From the NCBI GenBank assembly GCA_001438205.1, contig LICG01000001.1, positions 1 through 64,000 of the forward strand: a stretch of 64,000 nt of DNA. The letters are read 5' to 3'. The stretch comes from Cryomorphaceae bacterium BACL7 MAG-120322-bin74 (GTDB taxonomy: Bacteria; Bacteroidota; Bacteroidia; Flavobacteriales; Schleiferiaceae). The notes beneath the pieces are model-generated. The model was not told the origin of the DNA. It searched no databases and was given only the letters and a program-made list of their open reading frames with translations. Numbering within the stretch: the stretch's first letter is position 1; the number at the start of each line of letters is the position of its first letter. The position numbers were made by a program, and so were the translations under genes. Of this stretch, positions 18,032-39,880 are shown piece by piece.

Positions 18032-18061
18032 CAAAGTTAACAAATAATTTACATTAGACAA
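18032..18061 (-). promoter_or_regulatory. Full promoter (TTG-N19-TAACTTTG) of the small exported protein gene
   Basis: On the minus strand TTG (18059-18061) and TAACTTTG (18032-18039) are 19 bases apart. The -33 box overlaps the end of the upstream dehydrogenase gene. The leader would be about 20 bases. Confidence 0.7.
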
Positions 18062-18989
18062 CCTTATGTAAAATTTTTCTTAACAAAACTTCACCCATTT
18101 TAGGGAAAGATTGAGTACTCCAACCGGCGATATGCGGGGTTATCAGCACGTTGGGGTCATGCAGAAAGGCCTCAAACCAGCTTGGTTTTTCCTGTAGACC
18201 TTCCAGGGAGGCCTTTTCGATGTCGAGAACATCTAATGCAGCTCCGCGGATTTCGCCTTTTTGTATCGAATTCCAAATAGCTTCGGACCGGACTACGTTG
18301 CCTCTACTGGTATTCAAAAGAATGGGCTTGCGCCGGCAAGCAGCCAGGAAGGCAGCGTTGACCATTCCATCCGTTTCAGAGGTAAGCGGCACGTGTAGGC
18401 TGATGACATCACTTTCTTTTAAAAGGGTGTCGAGCGAAACCTCTGAAACCCCTTGGGGGGCATAGTGAGTTTTGTAGGCATCATAGGTGATCACCCGAAC
18501 ATGAAATCCCTGTAGCCGCTGGGCAAAGGCACTCCCCATGTTGCCAAATCCTATGATGCCAATGGTGGATCCCTCTAGTTCCCAACCCATATTGGATGCA
18601 CGATTCCAAGCGCCTTGACGAACTTCCGCATTGGCCCAATGAATACGATGGGCGAGGGACAATAACATGCCGAGGCAATGTTCGCCAACTGCACTTCGGT
18701 TGCCTTCAGGGGCACTGTAGACCATGATACCGGATCGAACGGTGGCTTGAGTGTCAATGTTTTCCACCCCTGATCCAAGGCGACCGATCCACTTGAGATT
18801 GGGTGCTTGTAAAAGCAACTCGGCCGTCAGGGTGATTCGACTGCGTAGCAGAATCCCTTCCACTTGCGCCAAATGCGGCAGAAGATTGTCTTGAGGCGTT
18901 GTGTATTGACGGTTAAGTGTATACCCTGCTGCTTCAAGGCCTAATTCTAAACCTTCATCCGTTGAATCCAGTGCAAGGACCTGTTTCAC
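18054..18989 (-). CDS. D-2-hydroxyacid dehydrogenase, phosphoglycerate dehydrogenase-like
   Basis: An NAD-dependent dehydrogenase of 311 residues. The Rossmann loop is GIIGFGNMG (144-152). The catalytic pieces NTSRGNVV (Arg) and TPHIAGWS (His) are in their usual order. WIGRLGSGVENID and HVPLTSETDGMVN are further landmarks. By family it may oxidise 3-phosphoglycerate for serine synthesis (SerA), but there is no C-terminal ACT domain and other hydroxyacid substrates are possible. It starts with GTG at 18989, overlapping the mgtE stop (GTGA), so it is coupled to mgtE. Confidence 0.85.
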   Translation of the reverse strand: MKQVLALDSTDEGLELGLEAAGYTLNRQYTTPQDNLLPHLAQVEGILLRSRITLTAELLLQAPNLKWIGRLGSGVENIDTQATVRSGIMVYSAPEGNRSAVGEHCLGMLLSLAHRIHWANAEVRQGAWNRASNMGWELEGSTIGIIGFGNMGSAFAQRLQGFHVRVITYDAYKTHYAPQGVSEVSLDTLLKESDVISLHVPLTSETDGMVNAAFLAACRRKPILLNTSRGNVVRSEAIWNSIQKGEIRGAALDVLDIEKASLEGLQEKPSWFEAFLHDPNVLITPHIAGWSTQSFPKMGEVLLRKILHKVV

Positions 18990-20332
18990 AGCAAGGCGTT
19001 GGCAATGGCAAAATAGATACTCAAACCAAGGACATCATTGGTCGTGGTAATAAAAGGCCCTGTTGCCAAGGCAGGATCTACCCCATAATGATGAAGTACC
19101 CAGGGGATGGCTGTCCCAAATAAGCTGGCAAAAATGATCACGGCGAGCAAGGAACCCCCGACCGTAGTGGCAAACAAAAGACCATGCCCCATACCCCAGC
19201 TGTACAATAGAATAACCGAGGCGCATATCAATCCATTAAATAGACCTACACCTAATTCGCGGCTCAGTCGGGTCCAAAGTTTCTTCTGTAAGGTTGAACT
19301 GGCAATAGCCTGCACGACAATAGCCGAAGATTGAACCCCTACATTGCCCCCCATCGCGGCAATAAGCGGCATGAAAAAAGCAATTTCGGGTGTATCAAAG
19401 AGGGTCTTACCATTGCCCGCTATGACGGAAGAGGTGAGGACACCGCCTAATAGGCCGACGAGCAACCAAGGAAGACGTGCCCGGGTGGTTTCAAAAAGCC
19501 CATCGTCATTGCTTACTTCGTCTGAAAGACCTGACATTAACTGGTAGTTGCTATCTGCTTCTTCCTGAATGACATCTACAACATCATCCAAGGTAATTCT
19601 GCCCAATAACCGCCCTAAATCATCCACGACAGGAATGACAAAGAGGTCATATTTTTTCATGATGCGGGCAACTTCTTGGTCCTCTGTTGTCGAGGTGACC
19701 GCACGCACTTGGCGTTCAAACACTTCTGAAATATGGGTGCGCGTGCTTGTGGTCAGCAACTTTTTCAAAGAAAGCGAACCGAGCAACATATCGTTATCGT
19801 CGATAACATAAACAGCATGTACGACCTCTACCTCTTCGGCCTGGCGTCGCATTTCGCGCACACAACGCAAAACGGTCCAGTTTTCATTGACCTTGACCAA
19901 TTCAGTGGCCATCAAGGAACCCGCTGTTCCTTCCGCGTGGGTCAACAAATCCGCCAAGTCTTTGGCCAATTCAAGGTTCTCGAGGTTGGATAAGACTTCG
20001 CGTTTTTTCTCCTCAGGAAGCTCAGAAATCAAATCCGCTGCATCGTCTGTATCCATGTTGTCCACGACGACTTGTGCAATCTGTTTGCCCGTGTAATTCT
20101 CTAGGATTTCACCGCGTAGGTCCTCATCAAAATAGACAATGATGTCTGAAAACCGCTCTGGCCGAAGGGACTGCATCAGGGCAAGAACCTCATGGCTGTC
20201 CAACTGCTGGGCGATTTCCGCAACGTCGGCAGGGTGTAAATCAAGTAAAAGGCTCTCTACCCCGGGAAAATGCTTATCCTCCAGGTGTTGGCTCAGTGCC
20301 TTGATGTACTCCGGTGTGATTTGGAACGCCAT
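18986..20332 (-). CDS. mgtE: MgtE magnesium transporter
   Basis: A 448-residue Mg2+ channel. The cytoplasmic N domain (about 1-130, LHPADVAEIAQQL) is followed by a pair of CBS domains (about 135-255, VLRCVREMRRQAEEVE and FVIPVVDDLGRLLGRITLDDV). Five C-terminal membrane helices (about 285-448) carry MPLIAAMGGNVGVQSSAIVVQ, the conserved pore motif. The CBS/N domains sense Mg2+ in the known family structure. The start overlaps the rsmA coding region by 59 bases, unusually much, yet both ends look family-like. Confidence 0.95.
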   Translation of the reverse strand: MAFQITPEYIKALSQHLEDKHFPGVESLLLDLHPADVAEIAQQLDSHEVLALMQSLRPERFSDIIVYFDEDLRGEILENYTGKQIAQVVVDNMDTDDAADLISELPEEKKREVLSNLENLELAKDLADLLTHAEGTAGSLMATELVKVNENWTVLRCVREMRRQAEEVEVVHAVYVIDDNDMLLGSLSLKKLLTTSTRTHISEVFERQVRAVTSTTEDQEVARIMKKYDLFVIPVVDDLGRLLGRITLDDVVDVIQEEADSNYQLMSGLSDEVSNDDGLFETTRARLPWLLVGLLGGVLTSSVIAGNGKTLFDTPEIAFFMPLIAAMGGNVGVQSSAIVVQAIASSTLQKKLWTRLSRELGVGLFNGLICASVILLYSWGMGHGLLFATTVGGSLLAVIIFASLFGTAIPWVLHHYGVDPALATGPFITTTNDVLGLSIYFAIANALL

Positions 20333-21095
20333 GGGTTAAGCTATTTGCCAGGGCAATGAATTCTGCAACAGAAAGTTGTTCAGCACGTTGCTGTGCTACA
20401 GCCTCCAAAAGTCCTGTATCGGCAAAATTAAGTGTTTTCAATGCGTTCCGGAGTGTTTTTCTCCGTTGGTTAAAGGCCGTTTTAACGACTAGGGCTAAAT
20501 GTTTGGGATTCACCTCAGGCATTTGGGCTTTTCTGACGCATCGAATGATCCCACTTTTTACCTTGGGCGGCGGATCAAACGCTTCGGGTTCGAGCGTGAA
20601 TAAGTAGTCTACATCATAGTACGCTTGGGTCAATACGGATGTAATGCCATACACTTTGCTTCCAGGACCCGCTGCAATGCGCTGTGCTACCTCTTTTTGA
20701 AACATACCGACCATCTCTGGGATTTGAAGGCGACGGTCAATCATCCAAAATACAATCTGTGTCGAGATGTTATAGGGATAGTTGCCGACCAAGGCAAAAG
20801 GGACTGAATCTAATGGGCTTGGAATAGACCATTTTAAAAGATCCGCATGGTAGAGTCGCCCACTCATTTCAGGGAACTTGCTTTGCAATACAGGAATGCT
20901 TTCGCGGTCAAGTTCAATGGCGTGAAGGGTAGTACGTAATGGGTGTAAGAATTGTGTCAGCACACCGGTGCCCGGTCCAACTTCTAGGATATGTTCGTAT
21001 CCCGAAAGGCGCAATGCCGCTGCCATTTTTTGCGCGGCCGTTAAGTCACGTAAAAAATGCTGCCCGAGGGATTTTTTTGCACGAATTTCAGCCAT
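20274..21095 (-). CDS. rsmA: RsmA (KsgA), 16S rRNA dimethyladenosine transferase
   Basis: This enzyme dimethylates two adjacent adenines near the 3' end of 16S rRNA during small-subunit assembly. It has 273 residues. The start MAEIRAKKSLGQHFLRD is diagnostic. SAM motif I is EVGPGTG (38-44) and the catalytic motif is NYPYNIS (105-111), with FNQRRKTLRNALK near the C terminus. The ATG at 21095 overlaps the stop of the upstream fusion gene by eight bases; longer starts are not family-like. The C-terminal tail runs 59 bases into mgtE and is rich in Gly, Pro and Thr, so it may be a late extension. Confidence 0.96.
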   Translation of the reverse strand: MAEIRAKKSLGQHFLRDLTAAQKMAAALRLSGYEHILEVGPGTGVLTQFLHPLRTTLHAIELDRESIPVLQSKFPEMSGRLYHADLLKWSIPSPLDSVPFALVGNYPYNISTQIVFWMIDRRLQIPEMVGMFQKEVAQRIAAGPGSKVYGITSVLTQAYYDVDYLFTLEPEAFDPPPKVKSGIIRCVRKAQMPEVNPKHLALVVKTAFNQRRKTLRNALKTLNFADTGLLEAVAQQRAEQLSVAEFIALANSLTHGVPNHTGVHQGTEPTPGG

Positions 21096-24000
21096 GAAGT
21101 CCGGCGCGTTGAAGGAGGGCATCGGGCTTTGGGGCGCGGCCACGAAAGGTGGTAAACAATTCCATCGGGTCAATGCTTCCGCCTGACTGAAGCAGTTTCA
21201 TGAAATCTTGCGCAACCTGCGCTTCATGCTCAGCTTCCTCTTGGAATCGTGCGAAAGCATCTGCATCGAGTACTTCGGCCCATTTATAGGAATAATAGCC
21301 GGCGGAATAGCCGCCAGCAAAAATGTGCGAAAATGCAGGAGATATCCAGCTTTGCTCCACGGTAGGCCAAACCTCCACCCGGGCCAATGCCTCTTTTTCA
21401 AGTGCCGCAGCATCTTGAACCTCTGTGCTCCGATGGTGCCATGCTAAATCTAAAAGACCAAGGCCCAATTGACGAACGGTCGCCAAACCTTCAAGAAAGG
21501 TCTGACTTTGCTGAAGGCGTTCAACCATGGCCGTGGGCATGGCTTCCCCTGTTTTGAAATGTTTGGCCCATTGGGCTAATTCCTTGGGTTGGAAACACCA
21601 GTTTTCCATAAACTGAGAGGGCAACTCAACAAAATCCCAACGCACACTCGTTCCTGTCAAGCTACTGAACTGGCCAACGCCTAGCATGCCATGAAGCGCA
21701 TGGCCAAACTCGTGAAATAGCGTCAAGACTTCATTAAAGGTGAGCAGCGCCGGTTGTTCCTTGAATGGGGGGCTAAAATTGCCCACCATCGAAATGATCG
21801 GGTAGACCCGGCCATGGTTGTCTCTATGTGCTTGTCGGTAACTTGTCATCCATGCGCCATTGCGCTTTCCCTTTCGAGGGTACCAGTCTGCATGAAGGTG
21901 TGCCACCCATTCCCCTTGGGCATTGCGCACATCAAAGACACGCGCATCTGCATGGTAGGTGGGGGACCGGGAAGGCTGAAAAGTTAGGCCGTAAAGTCGA
22001 TTTGCTACGGCGAAGGCCCAGTCTTGTACGCGTCCTAAGGGGAAGTAGGGCTTGGTGATTTCATCGTCAATATCCAGCACTGACAGCTTGTATTTTTCGG
22101 ACACAAAGGCAATGTCCCAGCGCTGTAGGTCACCTATATCTAGATGTTCAGCTGCAAAATCTTTGAGCGCTTTCACGTCTCTTTGTGCCGCAGGCAATGC
22201 TTTTTGTACAAGATCTTCCAAAAACGCATGCACCGTTTTCGGTGAACCTGCCATGCGCTCCTCGAGGACGAATTCGGCATGCGTCGTATAGCCTAATAGC
22301 TTTGCGCGCTCCATGCGCAAACGTGCAATTTCAATAGTAAGCAGTCGGGTGTCATGGGCATCGCCGCGGGCACCCCGTTGGGCATAGGCCCGCCATAGTT
22401 TTTCACGACTAGGACGGTGTGTGGAATAGGTCATAAAGCCTAGATAGGACGGCGCATCCAAGGTGATGATCCAACCTTCTGTTCCCTTTTCACTTGCTGC
22501 AAGCGCGGCTTGTTGCAGAATACTTTGTGGTAATCCCGCCACGGTTGAAGGATCTATAAGGTGCATGGACCAAGTTTCTGTATCTGCCAAGATCTTCTCA
22601 CTGAACTCTAGGCCTGCTTGCCCCATGCGCTCGTCAAGTTGGCGGAGCACACCTTGTTGTTCAGGCGCTAATAGCGCGCCATTACGGGTATACGCTTTAT
22701 ACGTTTTTGTTAACAACATAGAGGCTTCTGCGTCCAGGGTAGGCGAGGCATCATGGACGGCCTTGACTCTTTCAAAAAGGACCGGGTTTAGTAAAATATC
22801 ATTACTCAAGGCAGCCAACTTTGGGGAGAAGTATTGGGCTATTGCTTGAATGTTCGCGTCAGTGCAAGCTGAATTATAATTGAAGAGTCGCTCCGTTAAA
22901 GGATCTAGAGGAGCCGTCAATGTTTCAATGGCCACTACCGTATTTTCAAAAGTGGGCACATCTGTGGATGCCTCAAGAACCTTTAAACGCTTTTGTGTTT
23001 CGGCAAGGGCTTGATCCAGCGCCCCCTGCCATTCTTCTTTGGTTGGATGTGGAAAATCCATTCCGTTTACGTAGCTATCCATATAGTGAAATCCTTTATT
23101 GAGCGCACCTTCTTGGGTTTCGGTTGCGCGCGCTAGAATGCCTTGAGCATCTTCATTGACTATCGCAGGGAAAATATCGGATAAAAATTGTTGTCCAAAT
23201 CCTTCGGTGGCATCCCCTGGTACGGCACCAGGTAAGTTGTCTACTGCCAAAACGCCAAGGCTTCCGTTTTGGCCGAAGGGAACCTCCTGTCCCGTAAGTG
23301 GATCCCATGCGTAATAAGGGTTGGCCATGTTACTCGGACGAATGGTGGAAGGGATAGGACCCGCAATATCACAACTGATATCGCCGATAAACTGGAGTGA
23401 AAAGGAGGCGTCTTGCGCTTGTTCTTGCGTAAAAAAATGCGGGCCGCCTTCCGCCCAAAAATGACAAGGAATGTAGATGTCTGCTACCTGGGCATAGGGT
23501 AAAAAGGCAGAGGAAAAGCGTTCTGGGTGCGTGTAGAATTCACTCTTGTTAAAGGGTTTTCCGTCTTTGTGTTGTACATAATCGATAGCCGTCAGGACCG
23601 TAAAAATGGGTGCTGAAGGCATTGTGCCAACGATAAAATCTTGCGGGCTTACCTGGGTGCAACCACCTGCTAGGAGCATCTCCGTCGCACCTTGCGCCAC
23701 ACGACCTGTCCCGGTAAGGACGATGCGCCAACCGTCTTTGGTATGTTGGTTCAAGGCCGTTTTTAACTGGTCAACCCACGCCAAGTCAGCTGCCGGGGGC
23801 AAAGGTGCAAGCCCTTTCATTTGAAGAAAGCCCCTCAGGGTTTCATAGGCGCCCACCAAGCCTGCATAATGGCCGAAGCCGATGAGTCGCTTCCCGTCGC
23901 GCTTGAGTAATTCCCAATCAATTAAACGCACCTTTTTTTGAATACAGGCTTTGAGCAGCGCTCGATTATAGGGTTGCTCCTTGTAGGTGTGTGAGAAAAA

Positions 24001-24258
24001 AAAGTGGGTAGCCCCTGGTACCAAATCCTTGATAGGCACCTCTTTCACGCCTAGTAAGACATCGCATTCTGACATGCGTGTGGTGATGTGACAGCCCGCT
24101 TCTGCATACGCTTGGTCCGGAAAACAACGGACCGCACTGGGTTCTGCAAAAATGGAATGTTCAGGAAATTGTGCAAGAAATTGTGCGCATTGTTGTGGCG
24201 TCAGCACAGCACGCCGATCTGGGGGTGTTTTTCCTTCTCGGATGAGACCTACAATCAT
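21088..24258 (-). CDS. Fusion: saccharopine/lysine-dehydrogenase-like oxidoreductase + M3 metallopeptidase
   Basis: One 1056-residue frame holds two normally separate proteins. Residues 1-399 resemble the roughly 400-residue NAD(P)-dependent oxidoreductase (alanine/saccharopine dehydrogenase-like) of Bacteroidota: IREGKTPPDRRAVLTPQQC at the start, VLTGTGRVAQGA near 180, IGDISCDIAGPIPST near 291 and LAVDNLPGAVPGDA near 337. Residues 400-1056 begin MDFPHPTKEEW and form an M3 oligopeptidase. TFENTVVAIE lies at 436, the zinc site HEFGH is at 849-853 with a likely third ligand E878, and GGYSAGYYSYKWAEV is at 982. Both halves look complete and catalytically intact. A perfect TACCTTTG box is four bases before the ATG. 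A single lost stop codon is the simplest origin. Confidence 0.88.
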   Translation of the reverse strand: MIVGLIREGKTPPDRRAVLTPQQCAQFLAQFPEHSIFAEPSAVRCFPDQAYAEAGCHITTRMSECDVLLGVKEVPIKDLVPGATHFFFSHTYKEQPYNRALLKACIQKKVRLIDWELLKRDGKRLIGFGHYAGLVGAYETLRGFLQMKGLAPLPPAADLAWVDQLKTALNQHTKDGWRIVLTGTGRVAQGATEMLLAGGCTQVSPQDFIVGTMPSAPIFTVLTAIDYVQHKDGKPFNKSEFYTHPERFSSAFLPYAQVADIYIPCHFWAEGGPHFFTQEQAQDASFSLQFIGDISCDIAGPIPSTIRPSNMANPYYAWDPLTGQEVPFGQNGSLGVLAVDNLPGAVPGDATEGFGQQFLSDIFPAIVNEDAQGILARATETQEGALNKGFHYMDSYVNGMDFPHPTKEEWQGALDQALAETQKRLKVLEASTDVPTFENTVVAIETLTAPLDPLTERLFNYNSACTDANIQAIAQYFSPKLAALSNDILLNPVLFERVKAVHDASPTLDAEASMLLTKTYKAYTRNGALLAPEQQGVLRQLDERMGQAGLEFSEKILADTETWSMHLIDPSTVAGLPQSILQQAALAASEKGTEGWIITLDAPSYLGFMTYSTHRPSREKLWRAYAQRGARGDAHDTRLLTIEIARLRMERAKLLGYTTHAEFVLEERMAGSPKTVHAFLEDLVQKALPAAQRDVKALKDFAAEHLDIGDLQRWDIAFVSEKYKLSVLDIDDEITKPYFPLGRVQDWAFAVANRLYGLTFQPSRSPTYHADARVFDVRNAQGEWVAHLHADWYPRKGKRNGAWMTSYRQAHRDNHGRVYPIISMVGNFSPPFKEQPALLTFNEVLTLFHEFGHALHGMLGVGQFSSLTGTSVRWDFVELPSQFMENWCFQPKELAQWAKHFKTGEAMPTAMVERLQQSQTFLEGLATVRQLGLGLLDLAWHHRSTEVQDAAALEKEALARVEVWPTVEQSWISPAFSHIFAGGYSAGYYSYKWAEVLDADAFARFQEEAEHEAQVAQDFMKLLQSGGSIDPMELFTTFRGRAPKPDALLQRAGLHG

Positions 24259-33547: not shown

Positions 33548-33560
33548 CTTGATCACTAAG

Positions 33561-33951
33561 TGGAGCTGGTGGGAATCGAACCCACGTCCAGACAAGGAAA
33601 CGACAAGCTTTCTACATGCTTATTTTGTCATTGGTTTTCATCCAAAGGCTGAGGACAAACACCCCACCTTCAGCTTATCTACTAAATTTCAGAAGATTCG
33701 CGCAGCAAAAACCTTCCTATTCCCGCATTTCCAGCACCCCTTGATCAATCTCCGCAGGACGTGGATCTTGAGGGATGTCCCGCTTCCGCACCTAGTGCGG
33801 AATTAGCTTAGTCTCCTATTGGAAGATTAAGCGGCAAGAGCGTAGTTGTACTCGCCAATTATAGATTCCGACGTTGAATTAACGAGCATCAATCGGATAG
33901 CTCGGCATGCTTACAGACCCCTTCATCTTGCTGTCAAAACCGGTCAGCCCC
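33561..33951 (-). ncRNA. ssrA: tmRNA (transfer-messenger RNA)
   Basis: A 391-base tmRNA that rescues stalled ribosomes and tags their products for proteolysis. The 5' end reads GGGGCTGACCGGTTTTGACA, and the 3' end reads GGGTTCGATTCCCACCAGCTCCA. The 5' GGGGCTG pairs with the 3' CAGCTCC as the acceptor stem. The terminal CCA is not encoded, since CTT follows the discriminator A. The tag reading frame (33856 down to 33827) encodes GEYNYALAA then TAA, a variant of the Bacteroidota tag GENNYALAA. It has a full upstream promoter and a downstream terminator. It is one continuous gene, not the permuted two-piece form. Confidence 0.96.
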
Positions 33952-33972
33952 AATGTTGTGGAAAGTGCTTTG

Positions 33973-34000
33973 CAAAGGTAAGCGAAAGCCGTAGCCTCAA
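33973..34000 (-). promoter_or_regulatory. Full promoter (TTG-N17-TACCTTTG) of ssrA
   Basis: TTG at 33998-34000 and TACCTTTG at 33973-33980 with 17 bases between. The box ends 21 bases before the mature 5' end, so a short 5' leader would be trimmed, as for tmRNA precursors in other bacteria. Confidence 0.75.
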
Positions 34001-34035
34001 GGTGCGGTAGAATCTGTGTTGGAGAAAAAGAATGC

Positions 34036-35391
34036 TTACTGCAAAAAGAGAGGAGAATTCAAGGCCTGAATTAAGGTGACACTCGTTTTGTTTACCAAAC
34101 TATTTTTGACCGCTTCCCGCATATCATCGATGATGCGTGGGTTATAACTTGTTTTCATTCGGCCATCTAATTGGCCTTTTTTACTGGTCAGAACTTGGTC
34201 AGTGGTTTTGGCCTCCGAGATGCTGCTCCACTGTCCCGGATACAGATGGGCAGGATCTCCACTGTATTCAGCAGAGGCCACGATGCGCTCACTTTGTTCC
34301 TCTACCTCTTTGGAGGTCAGGATGCTTCCTTTAATTGGATCTACCAGGCTAAACTTTAGTGCGCCATGGATATAGACGCGGTAATCGATGTCAAAGTATA
34401 CGACTTTGTGATATACAGTTTCTTTTGTGACCTCACCCGTGTCTGGATTTTTCTTGTCCAGGATTTCTTTTCGGTAACCCTGGCGTTCATAACGGGACAT
34501 GGTACCAGGCACTTCTGTCCAATCGGTCATTTCCATTTCAAGCAAATAATCAGGCTGCTCTGAGGCTTGGTAACGGGTTTGGTCATTCCAGTTAATCCAA
34601 TCAATGAAGGGATCCTCTGTGCGCACAAGGTTGTTGATTAAATCTGCCCGCATGCTTTGGCTAAGGGTCAGCTCCTGTCGGGTAGGGGCCAAAATGTCGC
34701 GGACCCCCACCGTCACCATGCCGTGAAAAACGGCTGAATCTTGGTACTGGCGACTATTCTTGTAAGGCTCCCCAATTTCTTGCTCCAAATCGGCCCATAT
34801 ATAAAACGCTGTCCGGTATTTCTGGTTGTCATACAACCTATGGGCTTCGCGGTGCAGAGGTTCCGCCAAGGCAGCGCGCCAAAGATCTTGAAGGGCATTG
34901 TCTTCTGGGCTGTACTTGAGGGCTCTCGCAAACGTTCGTTCAGCGCCCGTAAAGTCACCTTGATCTAAGGATTGCTGCCCTTTCTGGACCAAATCCTTCA
35001 CGTAATCCCGCTTGAGTATGTTGTATTCTGACATATGGGCAGAGGTGCCCAAAAGAAGGACGCCCGCTCTATTGGCACGGTCCTCGAGGTCCCGGGCACG
35101 AACGAATGCATCCAAAGCGCTCACCGTTTCACCTGCCTCTGCGAGACGATCAAATTCATGCAATTGTGCTTTAATTTCCTTTTCACCATACGTTTTTACC
35201 TGGATCATCGCTTTTTGATGGCCAGGCTTACGTTCCAAAGCTTCTAGTGCCATGGTTGTAGCTTCGTAAGTAAGTCCTGCAGATGCCAGTTTTTTACTAC
35301 GCTTCAAGGATTGGTTGACAGGGGAACAAGAAAAAGCCACCACTGCAATAAGCAGGGTGGCTATAATAGATGGATAAGCGCGCTGAGCCAT
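34036..35391 (-). CDS. TPR-like outer-membrane lipoprotein of unknown function
   Basis: A 451-residue protein with a signal peptide and lipobox (VVAFSC, Cys22), so lipid-anchored in the envelope. Residues about 30-230 are helical with TPR-like repeats (AGLTYEATTMALEALERKPGHQKAM and QGDFTGAERTFARALKYSPEDNALQDLWRAAL). The C-terminal half is beta-rich without a motif I know (YLLEMEMTDWTEVPG, KVVYFDIDYRVYIHGALKFSLVDP, QSERIVASAEYSGDP). It follows rpoD by 15 bases and may be co-transcribed, or use a near-consensus TATCTTTA box five bases before its ATG. I do not assign a function. Confidence 0.75.
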   Translation of the reverse strand: MAQRAYPSIIATLLIAVVAFSCSPVNQSLKRSKKLASAGLTYEATTMALEALERKPGHQKAMIQVKTYGEKEIKAQLHEFDRLAEAGETVSALDAFVRARDLEDRANRAGVLLLGTSAHMSEYNILKRDYVKDLVQKGQQSLDQGDFTGAERTFARALKYSPEDNALQDLWRAALAEPLHREAHRLYDNQKYRTAFYIWADLEQEIGEPYKNSRQYQDSAVFHGMVTVGVRDILAPTRQELTLSQSMRADLINNLVRTEDPFIDWINWNDQTRYQASEQPDYLLEMEMTDWTEVPGTMSRYERQGYRKEILDKKNPDTGEVTKETVYHKVVYFDIDYRVYIHGALKFSLVDPIKGSILTSKEVEEQSERIVASAEYSGDPAHLYPGQWSSISEAKTTDQVLTSKKGQLDGRMKTSYNPRIIDDMREAVKNSLVNKTSVTLIQALNSPLFLQ

Positions 35392-35406
35392 AAGCTTAAA
35401 GATATA

Positions 35407-36270
35407 TCAGCCTAGGTAGGTTTTCAGAATTTTACTTCTAGAAGCATGCTTCAAGCGGCGGATGGCCTTTTCCTTGATTTGGCGAACACGTTCACGTGTT
35501 AGGTCAAACTTTTCACCAATTTCTTCCAAGGTTAAAGGATGCTGTCCATTGAGACCAAAGTAGAGGCGAATGACATCGCCTTCACGTGGTGTAAGAGTGG
35601 TCAAAGAGCGCTCAATCTCCGTGCGCAATGAATCGACCATGAGGTCATCATCAGGATTCGGTGAATCGTGCGAGTTCAAGACATCATAAAGGTTGCTGTC
35701 TTCACCTTCTACTAGAGGTGCATCCATCGATACGTGGCGTCCGCTGTTACGCATAGACTCCTTCACATCCATTTCACTCATTTCTAGCTTGGTGGCAATC
35801 TCTTCAGCACTTGGCGGACGCTCGTGCGCTTGCTCCAACGCGGCATAAGCCTTGTTGATTTTGTTGATTGAACCAATTTTATTCAGCGGCAGGCGAACAA
35901 TACGTGATTGTTCTGCCAATGCTTGTAAAATGCTTTGGCGAATCCACCAAACGGCATAAGAGATGAACTTAAATCCACGTGTCTCGTCAAAGCGCTGCGC
36001 TGCTTTGATCAAGCCTAGGTTGCCTTCATTGATCAAATCAGGAAGAGTTAAACCTTGGTTCTGATATTGCTTTGCCACCGAGACAACAAAGCGCAAATTG
36101 GCCTTAGTGAGCTTCTCCAGAGCACGTTGGTCACCCGCCTTGATTTTCTGGGCGAGTTCCACTTCTTCTTGCGCCGTGATCAATTCTACTTTGCCGATCT
36201 CTTGGAGGTATTTATCCAGGGAGGCCGTCTCGCGGTTGGTGACCTGCTTCGTAATCTTTAATTGACGCAT
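35407..36270 (-). CDS. rpoD: Primary RNA polymerase sigma factor (Bacteroidota type)
   Basis: A 287-residue sigma-70 family factor without region 1.1, the size typical of the Bacteroidota housekeeping factor. Region 1.2 begins [25 protein letters not shown]. Region 2 has [57 protein letters not shown] (core binding and -7 recognition). Region 4 ends in the helix-turn-helix [27 protein letters not shown], for the -33 element. It should recognise the TAnnTTTG/TTG promoters listed here. Only an imperfect TAATTTG is seen upstream of its own ATG. Confidence 0.96.
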
Positions 36271-36325
36271 CGGATGATTTCGTACTTGGGTTAAACAAAC
36301 AAATTACGCGATTTTTTCAAATCAC

Positions 36326-38563
36326 TTATTCCTCATTGCGGGGACCGCGTTCACGGCGCTCGCCGCGTTCGGGGCGTGGTCCGCGGTCGCCGTGATCATG
36401 ACGTGGTCCGCGGTCTTCGCGTGGAGCGCGCTCTACATAGCCTTCGGGCTTTTCAAGAAGCACTTTGCGTGACAAACGCAACTTGCCCTTGTCGTCGATG
36501 CTCAAAAGCTTGACTTCCACTTTGTCGCCTTCTTTGTAGAGAGCAGAGGGGTCTTCAACACGCTTCCAATCCATTTCAGACACGTGCAATAAACCTTCTG
36601 TTCCACGACCAATCTCTACAAATACGCCAAAGGTTTGTACCCCTTTCACTACGCCTTTGTACACTGTGTCGACTAATGGAACAAAACAAATTTCATTGAT
36701 GCGCTGCTGTGCCAAGGCAATACCTTCTGCATTGGTACCACTGATTTCGACGCGGCCAATGTTGCCCACTTCTTCAATCGTGATGGTGGTACCCGTTTCG
36801 GCTTGCATTCCCTGAATGATTTTTCCACCAGGTCCGATGATGCCCCCAATAAAGCTCTTCGGAACCTCCAAAACGACCATGCGCGGGGCATGGGGCTTCA
36901 ATTCGGCGCGTGATGCAGGAACTGCCGAGGTCATGACATTCAAGATGTGGGCGCGACCTGCATTGGCTTGGTTCAAGGCATTCTTCAGAATTTCAAAGCT
37001 TAAGCCTTTGATTTTGATGTCCATTTGGCATGCGGTGATGCCTTTTTCGGTGCCGGTGACCTTGAAGTCCATATCACCTAAGTGGTCTTCATCTCCGAGG
37101 ATATCACTAAGAACGGCGTATTTACCGCTTTCAGGATCTGTGATAAGCCCCATAGCGATACCACTCACTGGACGCTCAATTTGAATACCCGCATCCATCA
37201 AGGCCAAGGTTCCGGCGCATACCGTTGCCATGGAAGAGGATCCATTGGATTCAAGGATATCGGATACAATCCGAATCGTATAACCGCTTCCTTGTGGGAC
37301 CATGTTCTTCAAAGCACGCTGTGCCAAGTTACCATGACCTACTTCACGACGGCTGGTGCCACGCATCATACGTGCCTCTCCAGTCGAGAAAGGAGGGAAA
37401 TTGTAATGCAGGTAAAACTTCTCATCGCCAGTCATGGTAGCCGCATCAATACGGTTTGAATCCAAGGCAGTACCCAAGGTAACCGTGGTGAAGGATTGCG
37501 TTTCACCACGTGTAAACAAGGCACAACCGTGGGGTCCAGGAAGAACATCCGTCTCTACCCAGATAGGGCGAATCTCGTCCGTCTTACGGCCATCTAAACG
37601 GATACCGTTATCCAAAATTTGATTGCGCATGGCTTTGTATTCCACATCGTGGAAATACACCTTGGCCAAATCCAAAGAAGACGCTTTCTGTTCGTCTGAT
37701 AGGGTTTCAACGTAGGCTTCAAAGACCGCTTTAAATTGCGCAGAACGCTCAGCTTTATTGGGTAAACCTAAGCCTGCAACTTTATAGGCACCTTCGTAGG
37801 TGGCAGCTTCCACGTGCTTGCGTAAATCTTCGTCGTGTGTCTCGTGGCTGTATTCGCGCTTGGGCATAGCTGAAGGCACCATGGCAGCAAGGGCCGATTG
37901 TAATGCAACTTGCTCCTTAATGGCGTTGTGGCCAATTTGAATGGCCTCCAACATCTCATCTTCAGAAACTTCTTTCATTTCGCCTTCGACCATCACCACG
38001 CTGTCCGCTGTAGCGCCTACCATGATCTCCATGTCGGCTACTTCAAGTTGAGCGTACGAGGGATTGATCACAAATTCTCCGTTGACACGTGCTATGTTCA
38101 CTTCAGACATCGGACCGTTAAAGGGGATGTTACTGATAGAAATAGCCGCAGATGCAGCTAGACCAGCCAAAGATTCGGGTGCCGTAGCAGGATCGAATGA
38201 AAGCATGGTGATGATGACCTGGATTTCTGCGTGGAAATCATCTGGGAACAGGGGGCGCAAAACGCGGTCTACCAAACGGCAAACCAATACTTCGCGGTCG
38301 CTTGGACGACCTTCACGCTTCAAGAAGCCACCGGGAACACGGCCAGCTCCGGCAAATTTTTCTTTGTACTCTACAGAAAGGGGTAGGAAGTCAACGCCTG
38401 GGCGTGCATCCTTATTTGCTACTACAGTTGCCAAAAGGGCAGTTCCACCGCATGTGAGTAAGACAGCACCATCTGCTTGGCGGGCCATACGGCCTGTTTC
38501 AAGGGTAATGACACGGCCATCAGGCAGCGTGAGTGATTGAGAGATAGGGGTGGGTGCTTTCAT
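36326..38563 (-). CDS. pnp: Polynucleotide phosphorylase (PNPase)
   Basis: A 745-residue 3'-5' exoribonuclease using phosphate, part of RNA decay. Two RNase PH-type cores are present ([27 protein letters not shown] near the start, then [32 protein letters not shown]). A KH domain follows ([28 protein letters not shown]), then an S1 domain ([31 protein letters not shown]). The C-terminal tail is rich in Arg, Gly, Asp and Glu (about 35 residues). I chose ATG 38563 ([13 protein letters not shown]); the longer frame to 38620 crosses the rpsO-pnp hairpin. It lies downstream of rpsO, the classic order. Confidence 0.97.
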
Positions 38564-38611
38564 GTTTTTTAATTTCGATGTTGATTTCTTCAGGCCGCTT
38601 CTTCCAACGCG

Positions 38612-38640
38612 AAAAGGCAATCCGTGAAGAATTGCCTTTT
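38612..38640 (-). terminator. Hairpin between rpsO and pnp (attenuator, terminator or processing site)
   Basis: AAAAGGCAAT (38612-38621) pairs perfectly with ATTGCCTTTT (38631-38640) over a 9-base loop. The T-run after it is only four bases, so it may be a partial terminator. The same position in E. coli carries an RNase III-cut hairpin that controls pnp. No TAnnTTTG box lies before pnp, so pnp must be read through it. Confidence 0.6.
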
Positions 38641-38670
38641 CTAATTGATTCCACTATAGGGACTGCACGC

Positions 38671-38940
38671 TTATTTGCGAAGTCCTAATTTTTCAATGAT
38701 CGCGCGGTAACGCTGGATCTCGGTTTTTTGTAGGTAGTTCAAAAGACTCCGACGTTTACCGACCAAAAGGATCAATGAACGCTCTGTGTTGTGGTCTTTA
38801 CGATTCTTTTTAAGGTGCCCAGTCAAATGGCTGATGCGATAGGTGAAGAGGGCAATTTGCCCCTCGGAGGTGCCCGTGTCTTCGGGCCCTTTTCCGTGCT
38901 GCGCAAAAATTTCGCGCTTCTTGTCTGAGTTTAGATACAT
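38671..38940 (-). CDS. rpsO: Ribosomal protein uS15
   Basis: An 89-residue small-subunit protein that binds 16S rRNA early. The stretch GKGPEDTGTSEGQIALFTYRISHLTGHLKKNRKDHNTERSLILLVGKRRSLLNYL is diagnostic (the rRNA-binding H-D-x-x-T/S-R region reads KDHNTERSL). ATG 38940 (MYLNSDKKREIF) is the natural start; an upstream frame to 38991 would begin inside the leader. An exact TACTTTTG promoter box lies 48 bases upstream. The leader contains a small CCCGA/TCGGG hairpin that might be an autoregulatory element, which is speculation. pnp follows. Confidence 0.97.
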   Translation of the reverse strand: MYLNSDKKREIFAQHGKGPEDTGTSEGQIALFTYRISHLTGHLKKNRKDHNTERSLILLVGKRRSLLNYLQKTEIQRYRAIIEKLGLRK

Positions 38941-38988
38941 GCCTAGATCACTTAGATGTTTGTGCTGTATGCCCGACTTTCGGGTCTG

Positions 38989-38996
38989 CAAAAGTA
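38989..38996 (-). promoter_or_regulatory. -7 box TACTTTTG of rpsO-pnp
   Basis: Exact TAnnTTTG about 48 bases before the rpsO ATG; the only consensus box found ahead of rpsO and pnp. A -33 TTG is not visible at 17-23 bases. Confidence 0.5.
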
Positions 38997-39004
38997 CAAT
39001 AAAT

Positions 39005-39880
39005 TCATTTGGCGTGGACCTCCTGTGGGAGATTTCCTACCAAACTCAGCCATTGGGCCATTTTGTTTTTGACTTCTTTCCGCTCCACAATGAAATCAAG
39101 GAACCCATGTTCCTTCACAAATTCACTTGTTTGGAATCCATCGGGTAAATCTTTTCCTATGGTTTCTTTCACCACACGCGGACCGGCAAAACCAATTAGA
39201 GCACCGGGTTCGGCTATGTTGATGTCACCCAGCATGGCATAAGAAGCTGTAACACCGCCCGTTGTGGGATCCGTAAGTAAACTGATGTAGGGAATTTTGG
39301 CGTCATCCAATAAAGCCAATTTCGCCGAAGTTTTGGCCATTTGCATCAAGGAAAAAGCGGCTTCCATCATCCGTGCTCCACCAGATTTGCTGATCATAAT
39401 AAAGGGAACCTTATGCTGTAAGCTATAGTCAATGGTGCGGGCAATTTTTTCTCCGACAACAGAACCCATGGAGCCTCCAATAAACTTAAAGTTCATGCAG
39501 GCAATGGCCACAGGAATCCCATGAAGGTTTCCCACGCCGGAGGTTAGGGCATCTTTCAGGCCTGTCTTGGCTTGGGTTGCTTTGAGGCGGTCCGTATATT
39601 TTTTGGTGTCTTCAAATCCTAAAGGATCTTTTGATACCATCCCTGCATTCAGTTCTTCGTATAGGCCGCCGTCAAATAAGAAAGAGAAATACTCCTTGGC
39701 ATCGATTCCATTATGAAAGCCGCAATTGCCGCAAACCCAGAATTGGGCAGCATGGTCTTCTGCAGACACCATCACCTTGCACTTGGGACAAGCATGCCAA
39801 AGCCCATCGGGCGTTTCTTTCTTTTCTTGGGTAGGGGTAGTGATCCCCACCTCTTGTCTTTGAAACCAGTCTGTTGACAT
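39005..39880 (-). CDS. accD: Acetyl-CoA carboxylase carboxyltransferase subunit beta
   Basis: A 291-residue subunit that, with AccA, moves the carboxyl group from biotin to acetyl-CoA to give malonyl-CoA for fatty acids. The N-terminal zinc ribbon is complete: CPKC (31-34) and CGNC (50-53). The carboxyltransferase core contains [47 protein letters not shown] and [38 protein letters not shown]. Full length. It is 12 bases after the aldolase gene and probably co-transcribed from the promoter at 40982. Confidence 0.97.

Follow-up and report, generated by a model that had tools for sequence, protein, structure and literature searches.

The gene at positions 21088-24258 of the window (the whole 64,000-nucleotide stretch of DNA that was analysed) joins, in one reading frame, a predicted lysine-2-oxoglutarate reductase (LKR) and a predicted M3 oligopeptidase. 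With a probability of about 0.8, it is a genuine fusion of single origin that became fixed in the ancestor shared by two sister Schleiferiaceae genera and whose product is one cytosolic two-domain protein. Judged from its sequence, this product is likely to be a single enzyme carrying both activities; we infer that both domains are active and that the fused chain stays whole. No published account of an LKR-M3 architecture was found in the literature searched, in agreement with the earlier note, which knew of no established enzyme of this kind. The novelty lies in known domains placed in a new, conserved architecture, within multifunctional fused enzymes.

The features of the gene and its product are as follows.

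21088-24258, minus strand: whole fusion gene LKR-M3, 1056 amino acids plus stop; orthologous single open reading frames in relatives
23062-24258, minus strand: LKR half, residues 1-399, lysine-2-oxoglutarate reductase/saccharopine dehydrogenase (lysine-forming) type, by phmmer and Foldseek
24043-24045, minus strand: Lys72, aligned with catalytic Lys77 of yeast Lys1, invariant in 18 fused and 19 free proteins
23989-23991, minus strand: His90, aligned with catalytic His96 of yeast Lys1, invariant in fused and free proteins
23041-23097, minus strand: junction, with the last LKR helix (residues 388-398) and an 8-residue connector (399-406) that holds the non-conserved Met400, from alignment and model
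21091-23061, minus strand: M3 half, residues 400-1056, oligopeptidase A/Dcp type lacking the canonical N-terminal ~15-25 residues, from Pfam, structure matches, alignment and Foldseek
21700-21714, minus strand: HEFGH zinc-peptidase motif, residues 849-853, read from the sequence and invariant

Reading frame and distribution

The open frame runs over 1056 codons plus a stop on the minus strand, from 24258 to 21088. The earlier note gave no strand, but its description of two full-length enzymes joined in a 1056-residue frame holds, as do the junction codons GTA AAC GGA ATG GAT, the ATG of residue 400 at 23061 and the HEFGH motif. A Pfam search of the fusion protein matched AlaDh_PNT_N at residues 5-133 (1.2e-18) and Peptidase_M3 (PF01432) at residues 608-1053 (8.8e-122). 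A search of the organism's own genome found no second copy of LKR or M3; the fusion is the sole match for either.

The joined frame was seen again in 17 full-length orthologues and is therefore not a product of chance. The 18 full-length fusions are all uninterrupted, 16 of them in the genus of the window (window included) and two in genus g5, and the other proteins are 50-66% identical to that of the window. Three further genomes (G045, G046 and G056), in which the contig breaks off within the gene, also cross the junction, which is fused in 21 of the 21 genomes of the two sister genera where it can be read. The gene pieces of G052 and G008 stop short of the junction, while G044 and G048, both incomplete, gave no match. 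In a further genome, an additional short stretch (G007:C72:6166-6297) matches residues 1-44 of the fusion and is probably a contig-end fragment or a strain variant.

An error of assembly or base calling that joined two adjacent genes has next to no probability. The window belongs to a draft genome, and a single base could matter, as the earlier note pointed out; it named as refuting evidence a two-gene state in all close relatives combined with a faulty assembly. Instead, the fusion is present in every genome of the genus that is informative. The fused genomes are themselves drafts, and those named here are MAGs, but the same fusion appears in independently assembled public records from different projects (TMED14, UBA3431, UBA8754, Ww394 and CPC97), in which the codon at position 399 encodes Gly or Ala and is never a stop. 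Assembly error was rejected with 20 other genomes spanning the junction.

The comparison with relatives that the earlier note proposed, a fusion versus two adjacent genes, gave a clear division. Two genera are fused; in the other Schleiferiaceae genera LKR and M3 are two separate genes, never adjacent where examined, and the nearest pairs lie ~22 kb apart, in genus g14. Outside the two genera, no full-length match was found among 396 genomes sampled from the order and 395 from the phylum, nor among the 80 best-matching loci in a collection covering 84,980 species, and none on plasmids was seen among the matches listed. These searches cover the best matches in a sample of the order, the phylum, public contigs and plasmids.

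The LKR half

Residues 1-399 are homologous to the full LKR fold by both phmmer and Foldseek. Against solved structures, phmmer matched this half to the LKR (LOR) domain of human AASS at 1.7e-29 over residues 5-371, and to yeast Lys1 at 1.7e-15, while the fold match to 8e8u reached 2.8e-21 in Foldseek. The half is ~25% identical to human LKR. In yeast Lys1, Lys77 and His96 are given as the acid-base catalytic residues (Kumar 2012, as cited in PMC9490328). Lys72 and His90 of the fusion align with these two residues and are invariant, and the glycines of the NAD loop are likewise invariant in fused and free forms. The first half had been described earlier as a saccharopine-dehydrogenase-like enzyme, which can now be refined to the lysine-forming, or LKR, type by homology to AASS LKR and Lys1. 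Thus, the formation of saccharopine is its putative activity.

A separate saccharopine dehydrogenase of 461 amino acids, of the glutamate-forming type (Lys9/AASS-SDH-like), is encoded on another contig (G000:C22) and matches the SDH domain of AASS at 3.2e-62. Moreover, DapB is present in the same genome, which makes the DAP route the probable source of lysine. Because of these two findings, the LKR probably performs the first step of lysine breakdown rather than of synthesis.

The contig with the saccharopine dehydrogenase also holds, at L154:1462-2256 (plus strand), a ribosomal protein S16-like frame of 264 amino acids that adjoins a rimM-like frame. The tail of this protein is long, acidic and rich in Ala and Glu, with tandem repeats of the EEAPAADAT type.

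The M3 half

The HExxH motif, the glutamate that is the third zinc ligand and the His/Tyr transition-state residues, which together characterize M3 peptidases, are all present. In the alignment, HEFGH, Glu878, His978, Tyr984 and Tyr991 are invariant in fused and free M3 proteins. The earlier view that both active sites are intact is borne out by these residues, together with Lys72, His90 and the NAD-loop glycines. A search of solved structures matched this half to K-26 DCP, oligopeptidase A and Dcp. In NCBIfam it scored 455.5 bits against the OpdA equivalog NF008159 (cut-off 927) and 422.1 bits against the Dcp equivalog NF007624 (cut-off 944). Since both cut-offs were missed, the predicted peptidase is classed as M3, OpdA/Dcp-like, and neither OpdA nor Dcp is assigned.

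The beginning of this half was thought to be that of a normal M3 enzyme, which proved incorrect. Free proteins of the family begin with 'MNPLL..(F)xTPFxxxPFxxI...', a segment missing from the fusions, in which the C-terminus of LKR passes directly into the first M3 helix. One free M3 peptidase (L129:4845-6971, genus g19, G087) also lacks part of the NPLL segment though it is unfused, with 41 residues ahead of the PTFEN anchor versus the usual ~49.

The junction and the integrity of the product

The stretch that spans the junction reads ..YMDSYVNGMDFPHPTK.., and the length of the junction is constant in all fusions. The distance from DNLP, the LKR anchor, to PTFEN, the M3 anchor, is 95 residues in 18/18 full-length proteins, and residues 376-500 contain zero indels across the 18 sequences. 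This common, indel-free spacing suggests a structural constraint on the join. An AF2 model of the fusion (mean pLDDT 84.5, pTM 0.74) places the LKR helix at 388-398, followed by eight linking residues and the first M3 helix at 407-430. Each domain of the model retrieves its own family by fold in Foldseek, the LKR half superposing moderately (TMt 0.50-0.55).

One frame might still yield two working proteins, by internal initiation or by post-translational cutting. The earlier note raised the first of these routes, in which the ATG at 23061 would yield free peptidase in addition to the fused form. The window has this ATG at codon 400 and another at codon 393, and residues 401-425 are the most variable stretch of the whole protein. 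Against two products, codon 400 is ATG in just 6/18 fusions, TTG in 3/18 and a non-start codon in 9/18, no promoter-like site was found near the junction, and the fixed spacing points to a constrained join. Because the start at codon 400 is not conserved and such a promoter-like site was not seen, separate synthesis of the peptidase as a conserved feature appears unlikely, and a two-protein outcome by either route is improbable. A single, uncut two-domain chain is the preferred reading.

Origin of the fusion

Two gene neighbourhoods in the window bear on how the fusion formed.

18054-21173, minus strand: rsmA (20274-21173), mgtE (18986-20332) and 2-hydroxyacid dehydrogenase (18054-18989), downstream of the fusion; ancestral neighbourhood of the free M3 gene
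33549-39036, no strand assigned: rpsO-pnp-rpoD block and small ORF X (33549-33806, plus strand); ancestral neighbourhood of the free LKR gene, with LKR missing here

In five genera (g3, g7, g12, g13 and g14), the free M3 gene stands upstream of rsmA and mgtE, usually with the 2-hydroxyacid dehydrogenase as well, and the fusion keeps this neighbourhood downstream. Several genera keep the free LKR gene close to rpsO-pnp-rpoD. The window still has the rpoD block and ORF X at 33.5-39 kb, while LKR is gone from there and now stands ahead of M3; gene order therefore indicates that LKR moved to the peptidase. ORF X encodes 85 amino acids without a Pfam family, and its position upstream of the free LKR gene is shared by several sister genera (g14, g7, g6 and g19), in which it is conserved.

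The earlier note proposed that a single change of TGA to GGA had converted an adjacent stop-start pair into the fusion. This proposal is not supported, as no examined relative has the two genes adjacent and the fused peptidase lacks its normal N-terminus. Free LKR proteins end 59-73 residues from DNLP, and free M3 proteins typically start 49-53 residues from PTFEN. Readthrough of typical free genes would thus leave at least ~100, usually ~110, residues between the anchors, versus 95 in all fusions. Simple loss of a stop fails because the peptidase has shed its first ~15-25 residues and LKR came from beside rpoD.

One clean inversion, bringing the 3' end of LKR to the start of the peptidase, was prompted by genus g14, in which the two genes are ~22 kb apart in a convenient orientation; it was rejected, as ORF X stays by the rpoD block. 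LKR seems to have moved without ORF X, and more than one step or a transposition would therefore be needed.

The fused proteins fall on one side of a branch in both the LKR tree (SH-aLRT 99) and the M3 tree (SH-aLRT 100), each midpoint-rooted and built with no distant outgroups. Because they form one clade in both, the trees indicate a single origin followed by vertical inheritance. The reverse course, in which an ancient fusion was split, is unlikely, since the separate-gene state prevails throughout the order.

In eight close pairs, dN is far below dS in each half, and purifying selection is read to act on both. There is very little likelihood that one half is inactive and serves as a scaffold only. 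Long branches in some fused lineages speak for such a loss, but all catalytic residues tested are invariant in the 18 fusions, dN falls well short of dS in each half, and the search of the genome gave no further copy of LKR or M3.

Proposed function

In the proposed mechanism, the N-terminal domain would condense lysine and 2-oxoglutarate with NAD(P)H to form saccharopine, which would then be split by the separately encoded, glutamate-forming saccharopine dehydrogenase elsewhere in the genome. The C-terminal domain would be a zinc-dependent M3 oligopeptidase, removing short peptides from the cytosol. The main advantage would be co-production of two enzymes of peptide and amino acid catabolism from one gene, over channelling.

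The human LKR domain is a tetramer whose C-terminus is required for activity and reaches into the neighbouring subunit (PMC9490328). In the fusion, the peptidase is attached at the LKR C-terminus, the same place as SDH in AASS, and oligomerisation of LKR would place several peptidase units on a single particle. The halves could be coupled, the attached LKR capturing peptide-derived lysine or the lysine state regulating the peptidase. In favour of coupling, the fusion has persisted with an unchanged geometry through a long divergence, and both enzymes handle products of peptide uptake; moreover, LKR homologues oligomerise and need the C-terminus, exactly the point of peptidase attachment. Nevertheless, coupling is doubtful. 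M3 oligopeptidases, as a family, yield peptides or dipeptides and not free lysine, the two halves have no substrate in common, and SDH, the acceptor of the LKR product, is encoded on another contig. By the same measure, it is improbable that the protein forms a new catabolic two-enzyme particle, with peptidase units on an LKR oligomer, a required length-fixed join, and either peptide breakdown coupled to lysine capture or lysine/2-oxoglutarate controlling the peptidase. Co-production from one gene is preferred.

Comparison with known enzymes and significance

The closest parallel is AASS, the bifunctional LKR-SDH of animals and plants, which also has an N-terminal LKR, with the same fold and catalytic residues, and a second enzyme at its C-terminus. 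In AASS the second enzyme is the next one in the pathway, whereas the fusion carries an M3 peptidase and SDH is encoded separately; its C-terminal half is M3 in place of the Sacchrp_dh_C domain found in the AASS chain. The peptidase family and fold of E. coli oligopeptidase A (PrlC) and Dcp, and of Streptomyces K-26 DCP (PDB 5l43, 1y79), extend across the second half of the fusion (Foldseek E 2.7e-45 to 5l43), but these are single-domain enzymes. In other Schleiferiaceae, the free orthologues, an LKR/Lys1-type NAD(P) oxidoreductase and an M3 peptidase, are ~40-52% identical to the respective halves and share their active-site residues. Unlike the fusion, they are encoded by separate genes at least 22 kb apart or on different contigs, and the free peptidase usually has ~15-25 extra N-terminal residues.

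Fusions that join enzymes of different pathways seldom extend across a whole lineage; where they do, they usually hint at a hidden functional link or at gene reorganisation in small genomes. The present fusion is real and old, and two genera of a small-genome group of bacteria, the family Schleiferiaceae (Flavobacteriales), have kept it intact. As the states before and after the event both survive in sister genera, the fusion event can be reconstructed. It also presents a hazard for annotation, in which the name of the gene follows the winning domain and conceals the remaining step, be it of lysine or of peptide catabolism. Finally, one purified protein could test a functional link between LKR and M3 oligopeptidase in these bacteria.
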